This document shows, one piece after another, positions 10,701-34,239 of a DNA stretch of 40,069 nt (position 1 is its first letter; each line of letters begins with the position of its first letter). Origin of the DNA: a candidate division WWE3 bacterium (GTDB lineage: Bacteria > Patescibacteriota > WWE3 > UBA101185 > UBA10185); assembly GCA_012798115.1 (NCBI GenBank), contig JAAZNV010000009.1, positions 74,156 to 114,224 of the forward strand, given 5' to 3'. The translations under genes and the position numbers were made by a program. The notes beneath the pieces are model-generated. The model ran no database searches, was not told the DNA's origin, and was given only the letters and a program-made list of their open reading frames with translations.

Positions 10701-10988
10701 TTATCTAGATGGTTTCCTTGACTTTTCTCTTCGTTCTTTCTTAATTTGTCCTATTTTCCACATGAAGAGTCTTCCTTTCGTTTTGGCATTTCTAGACTCA
10801 AGAACTGATGCTCTGGCTTCCTCTAATATGCTCCTATCCTCATTTTTTGCTAATTTAATGTACAAGGATCTGTGCTTCTTATCACCAAGTTCTTCTGCAA
10901 GTCTATTCCCATAGGCTTGAAACTCATGAGAACATCTGTAGTCTCTGCTTAGCTTTTTTGATCTCAATATGTTTCCAATGTTTTCCAT
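10701..10988 (-). CDS. Small basic protein of unknown function
   Basis: A 95-aa Lys/Arg-rich protein of unknown function. The C-terminal 25 residues (IGQIKKERREKSRKPSR) are strongly basic, and the middle is predicted helical (LAEELGDKKHRSLYIKLAKNEDRSILEEARASVLES). It could bind nucleic acid, but no family motif is visible. It lies 21 nt after the DNA ligase gene on the same strand, so co-transcription with the ligase is likely; a helper role in DNA repair is only an inference from position. Codon use is like its neighbours. No Shine-Dalgarno sequence is seen before the ATG. Confidence 0.65.
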   Translation of the reverse strand: MENIGNILRSKKLSRDYRCSHEFQAYGNRLAEELGDKKHRSLYIKLAKNEDRSILEEARASVLESRNAKTKGRLFMWKIGQIKKERREKSRKPSR

Positions 10989-11009: not shown

Positions 11010-12806
11010 TTACTTTTTTCTATCTACATACATCTTTTCTACTTCTTTTAATGTTGTAGCCTGAGTTGCCTTTTTATCTTCTCTAAATTTTAAAAGCCTT
11101 GGAAATCTTAGTGCGTATCCTGCTGTATGAGTAGGGGATATACTTATTTCATCTGCTCCTATCTCAACTACAAGAGATGGTTTGACAAACACGTTAGGTT
11201 TAAATGCTTTGTTCATTTCAACATTTGAAGGTTTATCTTTTATTTTTATGTTATCGCACATATTTTTCATCTTCACCCAATCTTCTTCTGTTAGTCCTGT
11301 TCCTATCTTTGATATTGTTTTAAAGGTTTCTTTCTTGTCATCGTAAATGCCAACTAAGAACCCTCCTATTCCAAATTTTGATCTAGCACCTTTGCCGTTG
11401 TAGTAACCAAGAACAACGCAATCTATGGAATCAGAAAGGAGATTTCTGTCAGCGGTTTTATACTTTACCCACGAATATGATCTAGCCCCAGCTTCGTAAG
11501 CTTTTTCTGCTGACTTTACAACAATGCCTTCAAGACCTAGTGATTTTGCCTTTTGGAAATATTCTTCCAACTCCTCAAATGTTTCTGTTTCAAGGTATTC
11601 ATCCACCTTTATCACTTCTCCAGGCAGAATGATTTTTGTTAATATTTGTCTTCTTTCTTTTAATGGTTTCTCAACTAAGGATTTTCCATTTAAGTAAAGT
11701 ATGTCAAAAACAAAGTATTTGAATGGTATATTTTTAGCTGCTTCAGCAATGTTGTACTTCCTCTTTCTTTGTATGGTTTCTTGAAAGGGAAGAAAGTTTC
11801 CTGTTTCTTTATTGTATCCAATTCCTTCTCCGTCAAGTATGACTGATCTTGCATTTATTTGCTTCTTAGCTGCTGCTATTATTTCAGGATATTGATGTGT
11901 GGTTTCCTCCAAGTTTCTTGTGTAACTTCTAATGAGGAAATCTTCCTTATTTCCTTTTTCTAGTTCAAAAAGATTTGATTGAGAGTCTTTGTTTTTTATC
12001 TTTTTATCTTTATCGAAATGAAGCTGTATCCTAGTTCCATCAAACTTAAACTCTGCCCACATATGTTTTATTCTTTCTGGTATTTCTTCCATTCCAGAGA
12101 CTCTTTGGCATTTCTGTGATAGTACTGGAACTCCAGTTTCCATGCTAATGTCTCTTATTCCTTCTATCCCTTTCCCCTTTATTTTCTTTGCTATGAAGCC
12201 AATATCTGGATGAATGTTGTACTTAGCCTCTATATTCTTTGCTAGTGATTTGTTTTTTAAGTAATTAGCAAGAGCTGCTATTATTGTTAATTCCGTGAAT
12301 CCCAGTCGCATTGTTCCAAGTATTATTCTAGTTACATGTTTTGCAGAAAGAGGTTCCATATCATTGAGTAGAGAAGATACTTTACTAGTTTTTAAGTCTT
12401 GAGATCCTGTTCCTTCTATTTGTGTGATTTCTAATAGTTTTGAATATACTTCCGATATAGTTAAGTCTTTTGCCTTTTTATTATTTCCTTTTAATTCATA
12501 AACTACAGTTCCTAAATCTCCTGATTTTTTATATAAAGTTTGTATCTTATTTTTTAGATTATTTTGTTTTATATTCTCTGGAGTAGAGAAGGTTTGCTCT
12601 AGTATTTTTATCATTAGTTTATCTGCTGTGTTGAATTTTATTCCTTCAAATGAAGCTTCTAAGTATCCAGATGCTAGATATATTGCTTTGTCTGTTTCTT
12701 CTGTAGATAAGTTAGATATCAAGTCAGTGAGGATATTAGTCATTTCTAATCTTTTGGTGGTTTCTTCTAATTTTTGAAGGTATTTGGCGAATAAAGAGAA
12801 CTTCAT
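11010..12806 (-). CDS. ATP-dependent DNA ligase, archaeal/eukaryal type
   Basis: A nick-sealing ligase of the archaeal Lig1-like family, not the NAD-dependent LigA of most bacteria. The order is the N-terminal DNA-binding domain (about 1-220), the nucleotidyltransferase core and an OB-fold. Motif I is AEFKFDGTRIQLH, with the AMP-accepting Lys at residue 254. VILDGEGIGY (motif III), FDILYLNGKSL, EGIVVKSAEKAYEAG (motif IV) and SWVKYKTA (motif V) follow. The ending VVEIGADEISISPTHTAGYALRFPRLLKFREDK is characteristic of the archaeal group. At 598 aa it is full length. A TATAAT box ends 8 nt before the ATG, so there is little or no leader. Such ligases occur in several CPR lineages. Confidence 0.93.
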   Translation of the reverse strand: MKFSLFAKYLQKLEETTKRLEMTNILTDLISNLSTEETDKAIYLASGYLEASFEGIKFNTADKLMIKILEQTFSTPENIKQNNLKNKIQTLYKKSGDLGTVVYELKGNNKKAKDLTISEVYSKLLEITQIEGTGSQDLKTSKVSSLLNDMEPLSAKHVTRIILGTMRLGFTELTIIAALANYLKNKSLAKNIEAKYNIHPDIGFIAKKIKGKGIEGIRDISMETGVPVLSQKCQRVSGMEEIPERIKHMWAEFKFDGTRIQLHFDKDKKIKNKDSQSNLFELEKGNKEDFLIRSYTRNLEETTHQYPEIIAAAKKQINARSVILDGEGIGYNKETGNFLPFQETIQRKRKYNIAEAAKNIPFKYFVFDILYLNGKSLVEKPLKERRQILTKIILPGEVIKVDEYLETETFEELEEYFQKAKSLGLEGIVVKSAEKAYEAGARSYSWVKYKTADRNLLSDSIDCVVLGYYNGKGARSKFGIGGFLVGIYDDKKETFKTISKIGTGLTEEDWVKMKNMCDNIKIKDKPSNVEMNKAFKPNVFVKPSLVVEIGADEISISPTHTAGYALRFPRLLKFREDKKATQATTLKEVEKMYVDRKK

Positions 12807-12912: not shown

Positions 12913-13266
12913 ATGTCCGAAAATGTTTTTGTTTATACACTTGTCTGTCCAACCGATCTTAAAGGTGGAAATCGTTGCCACAAGGTGGAGAGTTTTCCAG
13001 TTCCGCTTGAGCTGGGTCATGAAGTAAGCTTGGAAGTGGACTCGTCCTGTACCGGAAAGACGACCCTCTGTGTAGCTGATTATGTTGTTAAACGAATCGT
13101 ACATAGAGATAAGAATCTGGGGGTACCTTCTGATGAAGCTTCAGAAACGCTTGTGTTTATGAAAATGAAGAAAGATATGGTCAAAAAGCTTATAGCCACT
13201 GGTGCTAAAGATGACGCTAGAGTAACCCCCAAAGGATTTAAATTCAACATAGAGCCAAATGGCTAA
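12913..13266 (+). CDS. Small orphan protein with strong expression signals
   Basis: I do not recognise this 117-aa protein. It has four Cys (VCPTDLKGGNRCHK and SSCTGKTTLC), which could bind zinc or form disulphides, and no membrane segment. Expression signals are unusually good for this window: TTGGGC, 17 nt, the extended -10 TGTTATAAT, a leader, and AAGGAGG 5 nt before the ATG. Base composition is richer in G+C than its neighbours (for example CTCGTCCTGTACCGGAAAG), which suggests recent transfer or strong expression. A bidirectional hairpin terminator separates it from the convergent Fic-like gene. Confidence 0.7.
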   Translation: MSENVFVYTLVCPTDLKGGNRCHKVESFPVPLELGHEVSLEVDSSCTGKTTLCVADYVVKRIVHRDKNLGVPSDEASETLVFMKMKKDMVKKLIATGAKDDARVTPKGFKFNIEPNG

Positions 13267-13326: not shown

Positions 13327-14334
13327 TCATTTCATTTGATATCTAGAGGATTTAGTACTCCCTGTCTTTTGAATTATATCCATATCAAGGAGTGTCTTAA
13401 GATCCCTTAAAACTGTATCTTCGGATATGTCTGGGAACAACCTTGGAAAGTCTTTGTTCTGCATTATTCCATAGTCCTGAAGATACTCTACTATTCTTTC
13501 TTGTCTTGGAGTTAGTCTTATTCTTCCAGTAGCCTTTGCAATTTTTGTATCTTTTGCTAGTAGCTTTACATTGTGTGATGTTGTAGATACTTCTGATGCT
13601 AGTCCTTCAGAGAAATATTCTATAAATCTAGTAAAATCTAGTTCCTCTAAATCTAAGTGATTTATTTGTTCTTCATATTCTGCTTTTGTATTTTTAAAGT
13701 AGCCCTCTAAAGATATAAAATTTTTAAATCCATAACCTGATGTTTTTAAAACTATGTATGTGAGTAGATTAGAGGATATGTCGTTTAGTTCTTCAAATGG
13801 TTTAACTACTTCAAGATAACCTTTTATTATTGCTGATGTAACAATAGGATGAGTATCCTTTGCATCTAGGCTGTTATTCCAATCAAAAAGCTGTACTACA
13901 TGAGCTAATATTTCTTCTGGATTTGTTTTTCCAAGCATCTTGTTTATTCTGTATGATCCTTGCTTTATCCTTGGAATTATTCCTTCCGTTAGAGTTTTAT
14001 GAATATATTTTAGATCTACTTCTTCTATCTCATTATTCTTCGATATTTCATCTATTAAGAATACTGCTTTAGTAGTGTTAGATATCTCTTGATTCACTGG
14101 TTTAGTTATATTTTCTACTGATTCTTTAATCTTTTGCGTTTCAATATTTATTCCCATTATTTGAAGTGAACCATGAATTCTTCTTATTGAAGCTTCTTTC
14201 TTAAGTTGTGATTCCCAAGAGGGAAGTATTGTCGTATTTTCAATTATTGCTTTTCCATACTCTATAATTGCTATGTTTTTAAGTGTTTTTGATGTAATTG
14301 AGTACTCCGGTAAGAACATGATTAATTCTTGCAT
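13327..14334 (-). CDS. Degenerate Fic-fold protein with C-terminal winged helix
   Basis: The layout is that of a Fic-family protein with a DNA-binding tail. Residues 50-66 resemble the inhibitory-helix region of Fic-2-type proteins (IRRIHGSLQIMGINIE for the usual SSxIEG...). Residues 105-132 match the segment ending GxYR (KQGSYRI). THPIVTSAIIKGYLEVVKPF (161-180) is the start of the Fic core. The catalytic motif HPFxDGNGRxxR is replaced by KPFEELNDISSNL: the catalytic His is Lys and the ATP-binding Gly-Asn-Gly-Arg is gone. Residues about 272-335 (LTPRQERIVEYLQ...SEDTVLRDLKTLLDMDIIQKTG) form a DeoR/winged-helix domain. I infer a transcription regulator that has lost AMP transfer. Confidence 0.7.
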   Translation of the reverse strand: MQELIMFLPEYSITSKTLKNIAIIEYGKAIIENTTILPSWESQLKKEASIRRIHGSLQIMGINIETQKIKESVENITKPVNQEISNTTKAVFLIDEISKNNEIEEVDLKYIHKTLTEGIIPRIKQGSYRINKMLGKTNPEEILAHVVQLFDWNNSLDAKDTHPIVTSAIIKGYLEVVKPFEELNDISSNLLTYIVLKTSGYGFKNFISLEGYFKNTKAEYEEQINHLDLEELDFTRFIEYFSEGLASEVSTTSHNVKLLAKDTKIAKATGRIRLTPRQERIVEYLQDYGIMQNKDFPRLFPDISEDTVLRDLKTLLDMDIIQKTGSTKSSRYQMK

Positions 14335-14369
14335 ATTTACCGCAGAAAAGTAAATAAGAAACTTAGATT

Positions 14370-14378
14370 TGTTATAAT
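14370..14378 (+). promoter_or_regulatory. Extended -10 promoter of the 14410 gene
   Basis: TGTTATAAT, identical to the -10 of the 12913 and 25545 genes. No -35 is evident. Leader of about 25 nt with a GGAG Shine-Dalgarno sequence. Confidence 0.65.
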
Positions 14379-14409
14379 GCTTTAAAATTAAGTAAAAGGA
14401 GAGTAAATA

Positions 14410-14718
14410 ATGTCTACTAGTAATGGATTTGTTTTACATGGTTTTCGGAATAAGGGAAGCAGTCTTGTGATATGGCTTGTCGATTTTTCTGAGAGGGCAT
14501 TGAAGAACGCAAAAGTTCAATTAGTGTGTCATGGTAGAGTTTTAGAAACAAAGTCTGTAACTGTAAACTATGCTGAAGTAGGAGAACTTTATGAGCCTCC
14601 AGAAGTCTTTAATATTGGATCTGTGAAATTTCTCCTTTCTAAGGAAATAAAAGATAATCCTGATGCTAGTATAGTTGTCCTAATTGGAGAAAAGAAACTA
14701 GATCCAGTAAAAATCTAA
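14410..14718 (+). CDS. Small protein of unknown function
   Basis: I do not recognise this 102-aa soluble protein. It has no membrane segment and looks like an all-beta domain (VIWLVDFSER, VQLVCHGRVLETKSVTV, ASIVVLIGEKKL). It lies head to head with the Fic-winged-helix gene, 75 nt apart, so the regulator may control it. Signals: the extended -10 TGTTATAAT and a GGAG Shine-Dalgarno sequence in AAAAGGAGAG, 7-10 nt before the ATG. A strong hairpin terminator follows. The orphan gene at 12913, on the other side of the Fic-like gene, has the same promoter type. Confidence 0.65.
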   Translation: MSTSNGFVLHGFRNKGSSLVIWLVDFSERALKNAKVQLVCHGRVLETKSVTVNYAEVGELYEPPEVFNIGSVKFLLSKEIKDNPDASIVVLIGEKKLDPVKI

Positions 14719-14767: not shown

Positions 14768-15838
14768 TTATTTCCCTATGGGTAGAAGAATAACCCTTAA
14801 TGCTTTATCCTTAATAAATTCCGGACTAGCTGTACTTGTAATTGTAGTTTGTTGATCTTCTATAGTGCTCATTACTGCTTCCTGATGTTTGGCGTCCAGC
14901 TCCGAAAATATATCATCTAGTAAAAGAACAGGTCTTTCTTTTTTTATCTTTTCTATATATTCAATCTCAGAAAGTTTAAGAGCTAAAACACATGTTCTTT
15001 GTTCTCCTCTTGATCCAAATTCCGAAACATTATGATCGTTAAAATAAATATCAAAGTCATCTCTATGAGGGCCTACTAATGTTGTCATAGCAGCAACTTC
15101 TTGCTTTTTGTATTCTTCTAACCTTTCTTCGCTTACCTCATTTTTCTTATATATTACTTCGGTTTTTGTACCTTCGTTGCTTAATCTTTTACCATTTTCA
15201 CTAATGTGTGGCTTTATACTTTTAAACATTTTCTCTCTTTTCTCTTGAATGGTAATTCCATTAACTAAAATCTGCTTCGTGTAAAAATCTATTTGATCGT
15301 ATCCCCCTTGACCGGAGTTAATAAGTTCTAATATTTTATTTCTTTGCTTAACAGCTCTTGTGTAATTTGTTAAAGCTCTTTCATATTCAATATCAACTTG
15401 TGAAATAACATCGTCCATATATTTTCTTCTTTCAGATGGAGATCCAGTAATAAGTTGAATGTCTTCTGGAGAAAAGAGAACTGAATTAAATATCCCTGTA
15501 AAGTATTGAATACTCTTTGCAACTTTATTTATTTTTACCTTTTTTGTAGATATGTTCTCAAACTTTTCATTTCTTATTACTTGTAGTTCCATGTCAAACT
15601 TTTCTTCTTTGGTTTCTATTTTGGCATTAATAATACAGAATAGCTTGTTATATTGTATTAGATCCTTGTCATACCTTGACCTATCTGATCTACCTGTTGA
15701 AAGTATGTGAATTGCTTCCAATATGTTTGATTTACCCGATCCATTAGGCCCAGATATTAAAGTTAGTTTTTCATCAAAATCTATTTCTATATTTGAATGA
15801 TTTCTATAGTTTGTAAGCTTAAGATTATTTATTTTCAT
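14768..15838 (-). CDS. recF: DNA replication and repair protein RecF
   Basis: An SMC-like ATPase that helps RecOR load RecA at single-strand gaps. The Walker A motif is LISGPNGSGKSNILEAIHILSTGRS at residues about 28-52. The ABC signature is FGSRGEQRTCVLALKLSE, and Walker B is RPVLLLDDIFSELDAKH. The length of 356 aa is normal. The end meets a perfect terminator hairpin. It lies 72 nt downstream of mutM on the same strand, with no clear Shine-Dalgarno sequence, and may share the transcript that starts at the glycosyltransferase gene. Confidence 0.93.
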   Translation of the reverse strand: MKINNLKLTNYRNHSNIEIDFDEKLTLISGPNGSGKSNILEAIHILSTGRSDRSRYDKDLIQYNKLFCIINAKIETKEEKFDMELQVIRNEKFENISTKKVKINKVAKSIQYFTGIFNSVLFSPEDIQLITGSPSERRKYMDDVISQVDIEYERALTNYTRAVKQRNKILELINSGQGGYDQIDFYTKQILVNGITIQEKREKMFKSIKPHISENGKRLSNEGTKTEVIYKKNEVSEERLEEYKKQEVAAMTTLVGPHRDDFDIYFNDHNVSEFGSRGEQRTCVLALKLSEIEYIEKIKKERPVLLLDDIFSELDAKHQEAVMSTIEDQQTTITSTASPEFIKDKALRVILLPIGK

Positions 15839-18033: not shown

Positions 18034-18543
18034 ATGAGGAAGAGTTCTTTTCTACCTTTAGCTTTAATAGTTTGCACCTTTTTAATGCTTCCTGTAGCAT
18101 TTTGGTTTTTTAATTCTAAAACTAATGAGGGTATTGTTAGAGGAGTTGAAACTAAGTCCAATTTAAATGGTGTGGTAGTAAAGATAAGTTCTAGGTATGG
18201 AACTTGGGAAATGTCTAAATACCTGTGTAAGTCAAAAGAAGAGTGTTTATTTTCTGTTTCATCTGGGAAAAGTTTGGATAAAGTTGGTGGCGGGGTAGTG
18301 GAAAACCAAGATATAGAAATTTCATATGATCAAGCTTGGAAAGATTATTCATTTTTGAAGGTGTTTGTTAAGCCTGCATGGGGATCTCAAGCAGGACAAT
18401 TTAATGCTTCTATAATTAAAAACTCTTCTCAAATGAGTATTGAAAGTGTTTCTGTTGATAATTATGAGTACAATATTGTAATTATTCCTTTGGAAGATTT
18501 AAAGAATCATCTTGAAGGTGTAATTAGATTTTCTAGTTTTTAA
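18034..18543 (+). CDS. Exported or membrane-anchored protein of unknown function
   Basis: A positively charged start and a hydrophobic segment (RKSSFLPLALIVCTFLMLPVAFWFF, residues 2-26) act as signal peptide or anchor. The remaining 140 residues look beta-rich and I do not recognise them; there is one Cys pair (YLCKSKEECLF). A TTGACA stands 29 nt before the ATG, with TTCATT at the -10 position after an 18-nt spacer, ending 5 nt before the ATG. The gene is divergent from the glycosyltransferase gene and shares its intergenic region. Confidence 0.6.
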   Translation: MRKSSFLPLALIVCTFLMLPVAFWFFNSKTNEGIVRGVETKSNLNGVVVKISSRYGTWEMSKYLCKSKEECLFSVSSGKSLDKVGGGVVENQDIEISYDQAWKDYSFLKVFVKPAWGSQAGQFNASIIKNSSQMSIESVSVDNYEYNIVIIPLEDLKNHLEGVIRFSSF

Positions 18544-18578
18544 TTTTCCTTCCTCTTTTATTTTTTCCTTCAGTGATC

Positions 18579-18584
18579 TAGTAT
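18579..18584 (+). promoter_or_regulatory. -10 box of the HEPN gene, leaderless
   Basis: TAGTAT, then TTGCAT and ATG 18591. The 6-nt spacing decides the start codon against the TTG at 18585. Confidence 0.6.
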
Positions 18585-18590
18585 TTGCAT

Positions 18591-19073
18591 ATGCAGGTTA
18601 TTGCTAGAGATTCTAGATTATGGAACTATATCACACCTGAGATAAGGGATCTTATTGAAGATGGAGAAATAATTCTTAATTTTGTGCACGACAATAAACA
18701 CAGAGCAGAGATTTCTGATTTTTCTTTTATTGTGTTTCCCTTTGCAAAGGCTTATGAAGGATTTTTGAAAAGATTCTTTTTAGACTCTGGACTAATCACT
18801 GAAGATGAATACTTTGGGGATGAAATACGAATAGGGAGGTTATTAAATCCCAACTATGAAGATAACTCTAGTGTATATAAAAGGATTTGTAATAAACCAG
18901 GTGCAGGTAGAAATGTACCAGAAAGGTTATGGGGTGCATGGAAAAAAGGGAGAAACTTAGTGTTTCACTACTTTCCTAACAACTTTAGAAAGTTAAGTTA
19001 CGATGAGTCTTTAGATATCATAAATGATCTTATTAACGCTATGGCAGAAGTAGTGTCTGGTTGTATAAGTTAA
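18591..19073 (+). CDS. Lone HEPN-domain protein (putative ribonuclease)
   Basis: The C-terminal part shows a HEPN-type active site: WKKGRNLVFHYFPN contains R-x4-H (RNLVFH), the catalytic pair of HEPN RNases such as RNase LS (RnlA/LsoA) toxins. The region before it (ISDFSFIVFPFAKAYEGFLKRFFLDSGLI) is the helical hairpin seen in this group. The track's TTG 18585 is less likely than ATG 18591, because a TAGTAT box ends exactly 6 nt before the ATG. No antitoxin-like gene is next to it. The 3' end overlaps the stop of the convergent secreted protein by 4 nt. Function as a toxin or defence RNase is inference. Confidence 0.62.
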   Translation: MQVIARDSRLWNYITPEIRDLIEDGEIILNFVHDNKHRAEISDFSFIVFPFAKAYEGFLKRFFLDSGLITEDEYFGDEIRIGRLLNPNYEDNSSVYKRICNKPGAGRNVPERLWGAWKKGRNLVFHYFPNNFRKLSYDESLDIINDLINAMAEVVSGCIS

Positions 19074-21514: not shown

Positions 21515-22864
21515 GTGGATAATTTGATTAATAGAATTAAAAATAAAAATCCTGATCTTAGAAAAGCAGAGATAGAAGGACTGTTGTTTTTATTGAAAAA
21601 TAAATGCTCATTTACTAATCAAGATTTTATATCCTTAACTGGAATTCCTAAAGAAACTTTGAAGCAATTTAAAAAATCTATCTCCAGTTTACTAGAGGAA
21701 CCTAATGATAATTTAGTTTCATTAAGTATGGAGGGCAAAGAAGAATTAAGAAATGTTAAACTTAAACCATATAAGTGGTCTCTTTTATCAGTGAAATCCG
21801 GTCATAGTAAGTCACTAGAAAAGATATGTGAAATAAGGGACAAGTATGACATAAGACCTAGGAGGGAATATGATCAGTTTTTAGCTACTCCAGAGACCTC
21901 TTATGCAAAAGCACAAATACTTTTTGATAAAGGAGTAATAGATGGGAAGTCTATTGCATTTATTGGAGATGATGATTTGAACTCCTTAATGTTAGCTGCT
22001 TTATCTTTGGAAAGTGAAAACAGTGGTGATTATAAAAATATTACTGTGTTTGATATTGATCCTCAGGTATTAAATTCCATTGAAAGATCTTCAAAGGAGC
22101 TAGGACTAAAAAATATTGAAACAGTTCTTTATGATGTGAGAAATAAACTTGATAAAAAGTATTTAGGAAGGTTTGATGTTGTAGTTTTTGATCCTCCGTA
22201 TACAAGGAGTGGAGTGGTTTTGTTTCTTCAAAGGTCCATAGAACTTTTAGGAAATAGGTTAGAAAGCAATGGTAACTTTGAAGGCAAATATATTTTTATG
22301 TACTATGGAAATAGTTTCAAATCTCCAGAGAAGGTACTGAAGATTCAAGAAGTACTAAATAGATTTAATTTAGTGATAGAAGATAAGATTGAAAAGTTTG
22401 CAAGATATTCAGGAGCAGAATCCATTGGAAATGCTAGTTCTCTTTATGTGTTAAGGACCAATAGGTTTACTCACCTGGCAGATTTTAGCTCAATTAAAAT
22501 TTATACATATGAGGAACAGAAAGAAGAAAGGTTTCCTTTCGTGGATCATTTAGTTTTTAAGGTTTTTGGGGTTAAAAATGATCTATTAAAGTCAAAGGGT
22601 AAGATTTTAGGTGTGCTGGGAGAGCTTTGTATGATGCATAATCTTAAGGTTATGGATAAGAAAATTACTAGTTTTAAAGGTGGTGGCCTAACAATTACAT
22701 TTGTCTTAGCAAATTCTAATCTTGTTGTTCACACTTGGCCTGAATTTGGATCTGTTCATATTGATCTTATTACATGCTCTCCTATTTATAAAAAAGATCT
22801 TTTACCATCTACTATTGGAAGCTTGTTTGGAACAAGCAAGATAGAAACTACTTGTGTAGAATAG
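21515..22864 (+). CDS. BpsA-SpeD fusion: branched polyamine synthase plus SAM-decarboxylase-like domain
   Basis: Two polyamine enzymes lie in one 449-aa chain. Residues about 1-80 form a winged-helix-like cap. Residues about 115-320 match BpsA, N4-bis(aminopropyl)spermidine synthase: RPRREYDQFLATPETS, the catalytic acidic cluster FIGDDD (152-154), DIDPQVL and FDPPYTRSG. Residues about 345-449 match SpeD, a pyruvoyl-dependent decarboxylase: LANSNLVVHTWPEFG, then IDLITC. Counting from Ser401 as E. coli-type Ser63, the processing His68 (H406) and proton-donor Cys83 (C421) fall at exact spacing. The usual Glu-Ser-His is Asn-Ser-Asn, so the substrate may not be S-adenosylmethionine. A TAGAAT box ends 6 nt before the GTG start, so the mRNA is leaderless. 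Decarboxylated SAM made by one half could feed the other. Confidence 0.85.
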   Translation: MDNLINRIKNKNPDLRKAEIEGLLFLLKNKCSFTNQDFISLTGIPKETLKQFKKSISSLLEEPNDNLVSLSMEGKEELRNVKLKPYKWSLLSVKSGHSKSLEKICEIRDKYDIRPRREYDQFLATPETSYAKAQILFDKGVIDGKSIAFIGDDDLNSLMLAALSLESENSGDYKNITVFDIDPQVLNSIERSSKELGLKNIETVLYDVRNKLDKKYLGRFDVVVFDPPYTRSGVVLFLQRSIELLGNRLESNGNFEGKYIFMYYGNSFKSPEKVLKIQEVLNRFNLVIEDKIEKFARYSGAESIGNASSLYVLRTNRFTHLADFSSIKIYTYEEQKEERFPFVDHLVFKVFGVKNDLLKSKGKILGVLGELCMMHNLKVMDKKITSFKGGGLTITFVLANSNLVVHTWPEFGSVHIDLITCSPIYKKDLLPSTIGSLFGTSKIETTCVE

Positions 22865-29386: not shown

Positions 29387-29975
29387 CTCGGATGAATTAA
29401 AGTTATTAATGCATGTGGTGGATGCCTTGGGTATTCGTGACGATGAAGGAGGTGCAAGACTGCCTTAAGCTTCGAGGAGCTGTCAAGAAGCGTTATTACT
29501 CGGAGATTTCCGAATGGGGTAACCTGGTCTATCGCAAGATAAGATCACTTGTCACTAAAGCTTTTGCTTTGCAGAAGGATAGGTGACATAGAGCAAACTC
29601 AGCGAACTGAAACAACTTAGTAGCTGAAGGAAAAAAGACAATTTGTTATTCCCTTAGTAGCGGCGAGCGAAAGGGGAGGAGCCCAAACCCAGATTGTTTA
29701 TTGATGTGACGGTTTGATTTATCAGACTGTCTAATCTTTAAGCAAATAAATGGGGGTATGGAAAATCCATGTCTGCCTTGAGCAGAGAAGAGTTACAAAT
29801 TACTTTTGTAGAAGAAGACGCCTGGAAAGGCGCGTCATAGAGAGTAACAACCTCGTATTCAAAACAAAAGTAACTCTTTGGGTTTATCCTGAGTAGCACG
29901 GGACACGCGAAACCCTGTGTGAATGAGCGACGCCCACGTCGTAAGGCTAAATACACGAATACACCGATAGCGCAT

Positions 29976-30006
<31 letters not shown>

Positions 30007-31122
30007 TGTTAGGGGAGTGAAATAGATTCTGAAACCGCATGCAGACAAGCTTGTAAAGCTCGACTTGTTCGAGTGATACAGTGCTTATTGAAGAATGATC
30101 CAGCGAGTTAATACTGTAGGCAAGCTTAATCTGTGAAAGCAGAGGAGGCGTAGGGAAACCAAGTCTTAAAAGGGCGAATAGTTTACAGTATTAGACCCGA
30201 AGCCAAGTGAGCTAACCATGACCAGGGTGAAGTCTATCGAAAGATAGATGGAGGCCCGAACCGGTGTACGAGGAAAAGTGCTCGGATGAGTTGTGGTTAG
30301 TGGTGAAACGCCTATCAAACTTGGCGATAGCTGGTTCTCCCCGAAACATATCTAGGTATGACCTTTACGTTAAAGTCATTGAGGTAGAGATACTGGAAGG
30401 GGATGGGGGGCGCAAGCCTACCCACTCCTACCAAACTCCGAATGCGATGATGGTGCGTATGGAGTCAGTGTCATGGGGAAATCTCGTGGCACAAAAGGGT
30501 GACAACCCAGACCATCGGTTAAGGTCCCTAATTTTTGCTAAGTGGGCAAGGAAGTGAAATCGTTAAGACAGCTAGGAGGTTGGCTCAGAAGCAGCAATCC
30601 TTTAAAGAAAGCGTAACAGCTCACTAGTTAAACGATTTTGCGCCGACGATTTAACGGGGCTCAAGCAAAAAACCGACACCATGGCTTTGCACTTTGTGCA
30701 AGGGGTAGGGGAGCTTTGATGCAGCTGTGAAGGTTCACTGTGAGGTGGGCTGGAGCAACATCAAGTGAGTATGCTGGAATGAGTAACGAGATTCGCGTGA
30801 AAACCGCGAACGCCGTATGTCTAAGGTTTCCTCCGCCATGCCAGTCAGCGGAGGGTTAGTCGATCCTAAGGAAAGGCCGAAGGGCGTATCTGATGGATAG
30901 CAGGTTAATATTCCTGCACTATTGTATGATCGTTTTACCAATGGGGGGACGAAGTGTGACTGATCAAGCCTGATAAGGATTTAGGTTCCAAAAACAAGTT
31001 AGTTTGTGTAGGAAAATCCGCACAAGCGTTTTAACATGAGTTTAGGAAAAGTTCATCGCAAGGTGAACAATTTGGTTGGTTTATGTTTCCAGGAAAATCC
31101 TCTAGGGAGATTGTGCAATATT

Positions 31123-31153
<31 letters not shown>

Positions 31154-31427
31154 AAGTATACCTAGGCGTGCGAGAGAATGGTGGTTGAGGAACTAAGCAA
31201 ATTACATCCGTAACTTAGGGAAAAGGATGCCCTGTGAGCGCGAGCTTGCAGGGGGCACAGAAATGGCTCGGGCGGCTGTTTAACAAAAACACAGGTCTCT
31301 GCTAAACCAGTAATGGGAGGTATAGGGGCCGACGCGTGCCCAGTGTCCGTAGGTCAAGATCGGGGGTGACTAACCGCAAGGTTAGAGGCTTCTGATTCAA
31401 GCCCGGATGAACGGCAGCAGTAACTAT

Positions 31428-32151
31428 GAAACAAGTCGTAGTTCTAAAACTTGGCTATATGCTGGAAACTCTGGTCAGAATTTGTAGCTAGTTATTGAAA
31501 TATCACAATGTAAATTGTAGATTAATTTTAATGACTGAAAATGCTAACAATGCAGACAATCAGCAGGAAAGACTTTCGCAATTAGGTAATTACATAGCTG
31601 GTTTTGTAGATGGAGAAGGGAGCTTTAATGTTTCCTTGAGGAAGAAATCTGACTACAAAATAGGTTGGCAGGTAGTATTAAGTTTTAATGTTTCACAAAA
31701 AGATCCTACAGTTCTATATATAATAAAAGATCTTTTTAAGTGTGGAATTATTAAACAAAGGAAATGTGATAATCTTTTCTCCTACGATGTAACAAAACCA
31801 AGCGATATTATTACTAATATTTTACCTTTCTTTGATGAGTTTTCTTTTCTTTCTGAATCGAAGAAGAAAAATTATTTACTATTTAAAGAGATAGTGGGTA
31901 TTTCTTCTTTAAGACCTTTATGTCATTCAAACTTTCTAAAGATTTTAGATCTAAGAGAGAGAATAAATGAGGGGAAGGGAAGAAAGAGAAAATATACAAA
32001 GGAAAATATTATTGCGAAAGAATCCTCAGAGACTATACGCCAGGCTTCAATTAAAAATTGAAGATGATATAGTCCGACCTATGCAGCGATGCATAGAATC
32101 CGATAGAAATATTCGGATCAGCTTATTTATTTAAGCTTAGCAACAAATGTG
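31428..32151 (+). other. Group I intron at L1917 with LAGLIDADG ORF
   Basis: The exon AACTAT pairs with intron GTAGTT to form P1, with the expected U-G pair at the splice site after U1917. The core is visible: GCAGACAATCAGCAGG (P/Q), CCTCAGAGACTATACG (R) and GAAGATGATATAGTCC (S), with P7 formed by GACTAT/ATAGTC. The last base is G (AAATGTG), followed by exon AACTGTTC. The endonuclease ORF begins within the core and ends at its 3' side, so it sits in the P6-side loop. Length 724 nt. Confidence 0.88.
31531..32061 (+). CDS. LAGLIDADG homing endonuclease, single motif, in the L1917 intron
   Basis: The LAGLIDADG_1-type motif is YIAGFVDGEGSFNVSL, with the catalytic Asp/Glu at its end. IGWQVVLSFNVSQKDPTVLYIIKDLFKCG is the usual beta-strand region that touches DNA. 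One motif in about 176 aa means the enzyme works as a homodimer on a near-symmetric site. I choose ATG 31531 over TTG 31495. The first codons (TENANNADNQQER) are read from the conserved P/Q core of the intron and the last (ETIRQASIKN) from the R/P7 segment, so coding and ribozyme sequence overlap at both ends. No Shine-Dalgarno sequence is visible. Confidence 0.85.
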   Translation: MTENANNADNQQERLSQLGNYIAGFVDGEGSFNVSLRKKSDYKIGWQVVLSFNVSQKDPTVLYIIKDLFKCGIIKQRKCDNLFSYDVTKPSDIITNILPFFDEFSFLSESKKKNYLLFKEIVGISSLRPLCHSNFLKILDLRERINEGKGRKRKYTKENIIAKESSETIRQASIKN

Positions 32152-32165
32152 AACTGTTCTATGGT

Positions 32166-32435
32166 AATTCGCGCCGCCATAGTAAAATTCGACTATATGC
32201 TGGGATCTCTGTAGTATCTGTAGCTAGTTATTTATATAACTGAAAATGCTTACAGTGCAGACAATCAGCAGGAAAGACCAATAATTTATTATTGGAATCC
32301 TCACTGACTATACGTCGAACATCTTAAAATTGTATTTAAGATGAAGAGATAGTCGCGTCTGCATGGCGACATGCAGGGAAAAGGTTATTAAAGGGAAATC
32401 TTTTTCAGAACCTTTATTAAAAGGCGAAGATAGCA
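32166..32435 (+). other. ORF-less group I intron at L1931
   Basis: The micro-exon CTATGGT pairs with intron GCCATAG as P1 with a U-G pair after U1931. The core repeats that of the L1917 intron: CTATATGCTGG, TGTAGCTAGTTATT, GCAGACAATCAGCAGGAAAGACC, CTGACTATACG and GAAGAGATAGTC. The loop that holds the ORF in the first intron is here a short hairpin (CCAATAATTTATTATTGG). The 3' border is uncertain by a few nt: exon homology starts at AGCGTAATCC (32436), but the base before it is A, not the expected G. Confidence 0.8.
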
Positions 32436-32920
32436 AGCGTAATCCCTTGCCGGGTAAGTTCCGGCCCGCACGAAACGCGTAACGATCTGAGCGCTCTCTT
32501 AACCACTAACTCGGTGAAATTGAACTACCGGTGAAGATGCCGGTTACTCATTGTTGGACAGAGAGACCCCGTGGAGCTTTACTGTAGCTTGGTATTGATG
32601 ATCGGTTTTAGTTGTGTAGTGTAGGAGGGAGTTTTGGACCCAACGGTTTGAAACGTCGATGAAACACCTCTCTGCTAATATCGAGAGTCTCACCATTTCG
32701 CATAACCTGCGAAAGGGACAATGCCTGGCGGGCAGTTTATCTGGGGCGGATTCCTGCTAAAAGGTAACGCAGGAGCTCAAAGGTTCCCTTAATGCCGATG
32801 GAAATGGCATTATAAGCGTAAAGGTATATGGGAGCTTGACTGCAAGACTTACAAGTCGAGCAGACACGAAAGTGGGACTTAGTGATCTTCCGAGTGCTTA
32901 GTGGTAGGCCCGGAACTTAT

Positions 32921-32951
<31 letters not shown>

Positions 32952-32994
32952 TATCTTACCCGAGCGTCCATAGCGGCGGTAAGGTTTGGCACCT

Positions 32995-33829
32995 TAGACA
33001 TAAATTAGGGGTGCTACGAAAGTAATTTCGTACCAAAAATTCGGCTAATAACGGTGAACTCCCTATTGATTTCGTATAATCTTCGGGTTACTATGAATTC
33101 AAGGAGAATACCGTGGGAAGCCTCACTGAAGAACAAAAATCTATACTAATAGGTAGTCTATTAGGTGATGGTACTCTTAGAAAAAAGAAGAACACACTTC
33201 TTGAGATAAACCACTCTTCTAAACAAAGAGAATATGTTTTTTGGCTCTGTTCTAAGTTTAGAGAATACGTTAGTACTCCTCCAAAGCTTAGAATAAATGG
33301 TTTGGGAAGAACTTCTTATAGATTCACAACTCAAAGTATATCTCATTTAAATGAATTCTATGAAAGTTTTTACCTTCTAAACGGCCAGAAAAAGTTACCA
33401 AATACTTTAGAGCTTGATAATCTAAGTTTAGCTGTTTGGTTTATGGATGATGGTTCAAGATCTCGAAACTCTGTGTACTTTAATACACAACAGTTTAACA
33501 AAAAAGATCAAGAAGTTCTTATTCAATTATTAAGAGAGATATTTAATCTAAAAGCTACTTTAAATAGAGATAAATGTTATTACAGGATACGTATCGCATG
33601 TGATTCAATGGATCATTTTAGTGATTTGGTATCACCATTTATTATAAAAAGTATGAGATACAAACTTCCGTGATGGCCCCGTATCGACTGATCCTGAGAG
33701 CGTAACTTACGCTCAATAACGGTGAGATAGAATTCTTCTATCAAACGCCGACTCCTACTCTTTAAATAAAGTGTTAAAGACAAGAGGAAGAAGATATAGT
33801 CAGTGCAACTAGAAATAGTTGGTTGTACG
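32995..33829 (+). other. Group I intron at L2500 with LAGLIDADG ORF
   Basis: The exon GGCACCT pairs with intron GGGTGCT (P1 with U-G at the splice site), placing the insertion after U2500 in the peptidyl-transferase centre. The intron ends in G (TTGTACG) and exon CGATGTCG resumes at C2501. Core pieces include AATAACGGTGA, CGCCGACTCC (R) and GAAGATATAGTC (S). The core differs from the two L19xx introns, so it is a separate lineage. Confidence 0.85.
33113..33673 (+). CDS. LAGLIDADG homing endonuclease, two motifs, in the L2500 intron
   Basis: A monomeric-type LAGLIDADG_2-like endonuclease of 186 aa. Motif one is ILIGSLLGDGTLRKK and motif two LSLAVWFMDDGSRSR, each ending in the catalytic Asp. 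INHSSKQREYVFWLCSKF and YRFTTQSISHLNEFYESFY are typical of this group. Start is GTG 33113 with AAGGAG 7 nt upstream, so translation is Shine-Dalgarno driven. It should cut intron-less 23S alleles at the L2500 site and so spread the intron. Confidence 0.9.
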   Translation: MGSLTEEQKSILIGSLLGDGTLRKKKNTLLEINHSSKQREYVFWLCSKFREYVSTPPKLRINGLGRTSYRFTTQSISHLNEFYESFYLLNGQKKLPNTLELDNLSLAVWFMDDGSRSRNSVYFNTQQFNKKDQEVLIQLLREIFNLKATLNRDKCYYRIRIACDSMDHFSDLVSPFIIKSMRYKLP

Positions 33830-34239
33830 CGATGTCGTCTCGTCATATCCTGGAGCTGGAGCAGGTTCCAAGGGTCCGGCTGTTCGCCGGTTAAAATGGC
33901 GCGTTAGATGGGTTCAGAACGTCGCAAGACAGTTCGGTCCATTTCCACAATGAGTGTAGAACTCTGATAGGGCTCATTCCTAGTACGAGAGGACCGGAAT
34001 GACATAACCTCTGGTGTGCCAGTTGTTTCGCCAGAAGCATCGCTGGGTAGCTATGTTGTGATTTGATAAGTGCTGAAAGCATATAAGCACGAAGCATACC
34101 TAAAAATTAGGGTTCATCCAATTTAATTGGACGCGACTCCTGGGAGAATACCAGGTCGATAGGCTGCGAGTGTAAGCACAGTAATGTGTTCAGCTGAGCA
34201 GTACTAATGTTAAGCGCACTTTAATTTATCTATATGGGT

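Follow-up and report, generated by a model that had tools for sequence, protein, structure and literature searches.

The window analyzed here is a stretch of 40,069 nucleotides of DNA from a Patescibacteria genome of about 0.76 Mb. Its open reading frame at 13327–14334 on the minus strand codes for a protein, P0001, which matches its description in an initial annotation as a Fic-like protein with a lost active site and a retained DNA-binding domain. The gene start given there, 14334, had to be corrected. The fic gene almost certainly begins at ATG 14319, which is codon 6 of the ORF (MFLPEY...), because homologues start at this position and codons 1–5 of the ORF fall within a conserved putative operator. 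The features of the locus are listed below.

11010–12806, minus strand: ATP-dependent DNA ligase, 3' of fic in nearly all relatives; in the window, ORF 12913–13266 intervenes
12913–13266, plus strand: small ORF of 117 aa, no family, between fic and the ligase gene
13327–14319, minus strand: predicted Fic-fold pseudoenzyme P0001, 330 aa long when counted from the corrected start, with a winged helix at the C-terminus
13330–13521, minus strand: winged helix domain of P0001, with recognition-helix signature SEDTVLRDLK and wing GSTKSSRY
13768–13803, minus strand: degenerate FIC motif KPFEELNDISSN, from the alignment with intact HPFxDGNGRxxR relatives
14149–14169, minus strand: degenerate inhibitory-helix motif SLQIMGI, aligned with SxxxEGN in relatives
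14323–14344, minus strand: putative operator TGCGGTAAATA TGCAAGAATTA, a direct repeat of two tandem 11-bp units, with 3 nt between its end and ATG 14319
14410–14718, plus strand: small divergent ORF of 102 aa, no family, between recF and fic
14768–15838, minus strand: recF, upstream of fic in nearly all relatives

The gene order recF-fic-ATP-dependent DNA ligase is found in the family members whose FIC motif is lost (dead orthologues) and in two genomes with an intact orthologue (G050 and G072), and its recF side also in G030 and G037. Often, fpg lies upstream. The order common to dead and intact members indicates that these genes are vertical orthologues. In the window, two small plus-strand ORFs (12913–13266 and 14410–14718) are inserted into the recF-fic-ligase block, and no homologue of either was found in related loci. 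The ORF at 14410 had been taken for an orphan gene with a strong promoter. It is indeed an orphan: none of the small ORFs from 26 related loci is homologous to it. It is therefore a private insertion whose relevance is probably incidental; it is unlikely to be the main target of a regulator encoded by fic. The strong promoter was not recovered, as a scan gave one weak match against 2.5 expected, and an extended -10-like element, TGTTATAAT, can be read at 14370–14378 before this gene. Downstream of the ligase, at 10701–10988, lies the gene for a conserved 95-aa protein without a Pfam match, which is found there in nearly all genomes of the family.

Fold and active site of P0001

A sequence search of the Protein Data Bank with P0001 matched Fic proteins (4rgl, E 5.6e-5; FICD, E 4e-4). 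In Pfam, the Fic family was matched with an E value of 0.0028–0.0029, just under the cut-off, and HTH_DeoR with an E value of 3.4e-4 (20.7 bits versus a cut-off of 21). Among the relatives of P0001, Pfam Fic is present in 44 of the 49 aligned, and HTH_DeoR is found at E ≤ 0.01 in 20 of 49. The AlphaFold2 model, for which 49 window- and locus-derived sequences were used as input, has a pLDDT of 90 and a pTM of 0.77. Comparison of the model with solved Fic proteins by Foldseek gave matches to 7xux, 4rgl, 8cil, and 3zcn with E values of 1e-11 to 6e-8 over about 340 aligned columns. These matches include CbFic2 and SoFic, which both carry a winged helix-turn-helix (wHTH), and the alignments are nearly full length. 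After the Fic core, the model contains a winged helix consisting of helices 271–283, 288–294, and 300–312 and two strands. The predicted fold is that of Fic/Doc (Fido) proteins with the Fic helical core, rather than an unrelated one, and P0001 has the Fic-wHTH architecture of SoFic, CbFic2, and CccR. The preservation of the flanking Fic fold and the C-terminal winged helix, which had been read from the sequence, is thus borne out by the model.

Residues 178–190 of P0001 read KPFEELNDISSNL and lie opposite HPFxDGNGRTARA of the intact relatives in the alignment. The catalytic His is replaced by Lys, and Gly, Gly, Arg, and Arg of GNGRxxR are gone, although Pro, Phe, and Asn are retained. P0001 is without the motif HxFx[DE]GNGRxxR of Fic AMP transferases, in agreement with the earlier claim that the catalytic His and Gly-Asn-Gly-Arg are missing. 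The sequence of the class II inhibitory helix, [ST]xxxE[GN], is likewise absent; P0001 has SLQIMG, with Met in place of the inhibitory Glu. This helix has decayed unevenly and is degraded in most of the dead orthologues, although G013 and G016 keep SxxxEG and several others keep the Glu alone. The intact orthologues retain SxxxEGN. In the alignment of the dead members the former active-site loop varies freely, and no consistent replacement of the lost catalytic residues was found. AMP transfer activity of P0001 is expected to be absent, and its motifs place the protein among Fic-fold pseudoenzymes rather than Fic AMP transferases.

Descent and selection of the fic gene

The closest named relatives found were a Patescibacteria group bacterium with 74% identity and two "candidate division WWE3" genomes with 45–46% identity. 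In a search of 96 relatives, orthologues of P0001 were present in nearly all genomes of the family to which the window belongs (code f1, WWE3-type Patescibacteria). All 25 orthologues of this family are without the FIC motif. The remaining 32 Fic rows of the tree all contain the motif or a one-letter variant of it, and they include the Fic paralogue encoded in the genome of the window itself (L002) as well as the closest orthologues from other families. In the tree, which was built without both motif regions, the dead rows form one clade with a support of 100/100. Because these 25 rows are one clade and the nearest orthologues from other families are intact, the alignment and tree argue that catalysis was lost once, at the base of the family, and the shared gene order that the descent was vertical. 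Repeated independent losses of the motif are rejected on the same grounds.

The initial annotation had asked for homologues with an intact motif, and these do exist in other families, several of them in the same recF-fic-ligase order. Among the 25 close orthologues there are none, so that the missing motif does not come from a sequence error. A pseudogene is rejected along with it, as all 25 lack the motif with the reading frame kept. In the closest pairs, the dN/dS ratio of fic is about 0.03–0.04 with dS near saturation, and the linker and wHTH together give 0.015–0.04 where measurable. The low ratios indicate that the gene is not decaying, and P0001 is, by this measure, under purifying selection. 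The mean identity of the motif region is 33% among the dead orthologues versus 61% among the intact ones, whereas for the wHTH the mean pairwise identity is 65% versus 50%, and the wHTH is the best conserved part of the protein within the dead clade. This comparison suggests that constraint has shifted away from the active site and onto the DNA-binding domain. In G002, fic is truncated and recF was not found in the assembly, which makes this genome uninformative on the loss of fic. G005, in whose assembly fic, recF, and the ligase gene were not found, is equally uninformative, as either an assembly gap or a deletion may be the cause.

Tandem repeats upstream of fic and comEA

A 22-bp tandem direct repeat, TGCGGKAAATATGCRAGAATTA, consisting of two 11-bp units, is situated just 5' of the fic start in 25 of 25 dead orthologues. 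The site reads TGCGGKAAATRTGCRAGAATTA or a near copy of it and usually ends 3–7 nt before the start codon. A binding site had been proposed within 14335–14409, which was nearly right, as the putative operator is close by, but the operator at 14323–14344 overlaps the mis-called first codons. With up to three mismatches allowed, the pattern was found in 25 of the 27 family genomes, usually once, and reversed-pattern controls gave 0 or 1. Related repeats scoring 21–31 bits precede half of the intact orthologues (7 of 14: G072, G030, G037, G041, G042, G027, and G050), and no paralogous Fic gene has the operator in the upstream regions scanned. The recognition helix S[ED]DTxLR[DE]L is present in both dead and intact orthologues, and that of the paralogues differs, in line with the distribution of the operator. 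A palindrome recognized by eye near 14335 (ATTTAC-N9-GTAAAT) was dropped, since the direct repeat is what the relatives conserve.

Position 16 of the repeat is an A in 24 of the 25 fic sites and a G or T in all sites upstream of the com genes described below. This fits a second repeat of the fic site with an additional function as an extended -10 element (TGCGAGAAT), and such a dual role would explain the difference. Because there is no Shine-Dalgarno sequence in the short gap between the operator and the ATG, the fic transcript is likely to be leaderless. Arrays of TGCGG-type repeats are located just 3' of recF in G077 (L194, about 500–700) and G094 (L193, about 681), where fic is on another contig, and perhaps represent a remnant of the fic promoter. 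A triple operator-like repeat is seen at position 3943 of L189 in G048 and at position 3702 of L190 in G071, both genomes with an intact Fic orthologue. The genes that follow, named by eye, encode small, anti-sigma-like, and, in G071 only, glutaredoxin-like proteins.

The regulon in the genome of the window was sought by pattern and profile search. Only two model matches with E ≤ 5 were obtained, one at fic and one at comEA, whose upstream region lies on contig C6 at 18480–18700. The latter site is 95 bp before comEA, beside dprA, with a weaker copy 64 bp further upstream, and the com sites of this genome are weaker (19.9 bits) than those in most relatives. In the family as a whole, the matches at three mismatches other than those at fic are nearly all located before comEA and comEC, behind comM, dprA, or a small ArsR-like gene. 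A matrix trained on the fic sites alone was then applied to the 250 bp preceding comEA. A site was recovered in each of the 23 family genomes in which this region was readable, with scores of 11.7–33.4 bits, and 22 of these reached at least 17 bits; shuffled sequences averaged about -3 bits. The com sites are mostly non-coding and are often paired at a distance of 50–101 bp. No com site is present in G016 and G021, the family genomes without comEC. In G021, an operator-like repeat pair is observed between rplA and rplJ (L179, about 2339–2413).

In the 17 outgroup genomes with comEA at E ≤ 1e-7, the same matrix scored no higher than 3.0 bits before comEA in any of them. The scores are low too in the outgroup genomes G031, G042, and G044, where the weak ComEA match leaves the identity of the gene uncertain; in G035 the stretch upstream of comEA is shortened by a contig end. 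Apparent com-site matches in the outgroups G027, G030, and G037 were discounted because they lie inside coding sequence, as do the operator-like matches, also discounted, in leuS (G027, G030, G035, and G037), comEC (G030 and G037), and ligA (G041 and G042). Matches at C72 and C136 of G010 and at C11 of G018, together with several others at E > 0.05, fall in or close to unrelated genes and were taken as noise. As the com-like matches of the outgroups are all coding, the link to the com genes was observed solely in the family with the dead Fic. From the sequences, com control cannot be shown to be the ancestral state.

A probable regulatory role for P0001 and its alternatives

That P0001 is a Fic pseudoenzyme acting as a sequence-specific, autoregulated regulator of the competence genes and of its own fic-ligase operon is, in our estimate, probable (about 0.7). 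The initial annotation had suggested a Fic enzyme turned transcription regulator, and this fits all the evidence obtained. The fold, the single loss of the active site, the purifying selection, the operator at both promoters, and its clade-specific association were computed; direct binding, repression, and a signal are what we infer. The winged helix would bind the tandem 11-bp direct repeats, with the consensus TGCGKKAAATA-TGCGRGAATTA. At the site overlapping the promoter and start of fic, binding would result in autorepression of fic and of the downstream ATP-dependent DNA ligase, which would belong to the same transcription unit in most relatives. Through the one or two further sites upstream of comEA-comEC, the DNA uptake operon, P0001 would control DNA uptake, most likely by repression that is relieved by a signal. 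The dead Fic core probably mediates dimerization and may also act as a sensor of a ligand or partner. We give somewhat better than even odds to the evolutionary scenario in which Fic lost catalysis once at the base of WWE3 and was rewired to a dedicated regulator of natural competence (comEA-comEC) and the DNA-ligase operon, with com sites only in the lineage of the dead enzyme.

The repeats could instead be the binding sites of the small ArsR-like winged-helix protein whose gene lies immediately 5' of comEA, in which case the Fic-derived protein would be unrelated or an indirectly regulated target. The ArsR-like gene is conserved beside comEA throughout the family with 57–93% identity, and G005 contains this gene together with com sites, with fic not detected. 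However, the fic operator is also found in intact-Fic outgroups that have no close ArsR-like orthologue (G072, G041, G042, G030, and G027) and in the family members G016 and G021, where the ArsR-like gene was not found. In G018, moreover, the ArsR-like gene is about 2.6 kb from the comEA site, and the conserved site at the start of fic itself is what would be expected of an autoregulator. This explanation is considered unlikely.

It is quite improbable that P0001 is purely an autoregulator of the fic-ligase operon, with the com sites recognized by a different factor of similar motif or forming a promoter class. The strongest and most constant site is indeed the one at fic, only the fic site is seen in the intact-Fic outgroups, and the two kinds of site differ at position 16. 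Yet the matrix trained on fic sites matches the com sites of every family genome with a readable region, often as pairs, and a fic site that also serves as an extended -10 element would account for the difference at position 16. A cryptic enzyme, in which the altered Fic pocket performs another chemistry or serves as a nucleotide-binding sensor with DNA binding as an accessory function, would agree with the retention of the Fic core under purifying selection and with the clade-specific conserved residues around ORF residues 137–163. The freely variable active-site loop and the lack of a consistent substitute catalytic residue argue against it, and we regard it as highly improbable.

The closest precedent for an autoregulated Fic pseudoenzyme of this kind is CccR from Yersinia pseudotuberculosis, a class II Fic protein with a C-terminal HTH through which it represses its own promoter, the regulatory part being separable from catalysis (PMC9755527). 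CccR and P0001 have in common a Fic core and a C-terminal HTH in one chain, and CccR, an active Fic-HTH autorepressor, demonstrates that the principle is possible. For P0001, autoregulation is suggested by the site in its own promoter, as in CccR-like autoregulators, in all 25 dead orthologues. Unlike P0001, CccR retains an intact FIC motif and is secreted as a toxin that acts on FtsZ, with no link to competence. The operators differ as well, a widely spaced palindrome for CccR and a tandem direct repeat for P0001. By analogy, P0001 would function as an autoregulator of the CccR type, but with its own kind of operator and, apparently, a regulon of competence genes.

CbFic2 from Coxiella burnetii (8cil) and SoFic from Shewanella (3zcn), the structural neighbors of P0001, are class II Fic proteins with the same domain order but, unlike P0001, are catalytically active. 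CbFic2 dimerizes and uses a DeoR-type wHTH to bind DNA (PMC10628234). In contrast to P0001 with its putative operator, CbFic2 is not known to have a specific operator. The intact Fic-wHTH orthologues of sister families (for example, those of G072, G050, G030, G037, and G041) are the same gene, several with the same recF-ligase neighborhood. They share the recognition-helix signature and about half have the operator, but their HPFxDGNGR and SxxxEGN motifs are intact and no site was found before comEA. ComK, Sxy/CRP, and similar regulators of competence control DNA-uptake genes, a role that P0001 would share, but they are unrelated proteins.

ComEC has been detected in 86% of the genomes of the candidate phyla radiation (CPR) and the com machinery in most of them (PMC6744442), and natural transformation is the route to CPR genetics (PMC10633639). 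In our literature search, we found no regulator of com genes reported for CPR bacteria. The present analysis names a candidate for one, together with its operator and target promoters across one family. If the assignment is true, DNA uptake in the CPR would have a candidate regulator in a Fic-derived pseudoenzyme transcription factor. It would also provide a clean case of an enzyme turned transcription factor, in which the point of loss, the intact sisters, and the shift in constraint can be read from sequence.

Elsewhere in the window, the 23S rRNA gene (29396–34227) is interrupted by a group I intron (32122–32376) and contains two ORFs for LAGLIDADG homing endonucleases (31495–32061 and 33113–33673). 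A single ORF at 21515–22864 encodes both a branched-chain polyamine synthase (BpsA_C) and an S-adenosylmethionine decarboxylase domain, and its product would combine two steps of polyamine synthesis.
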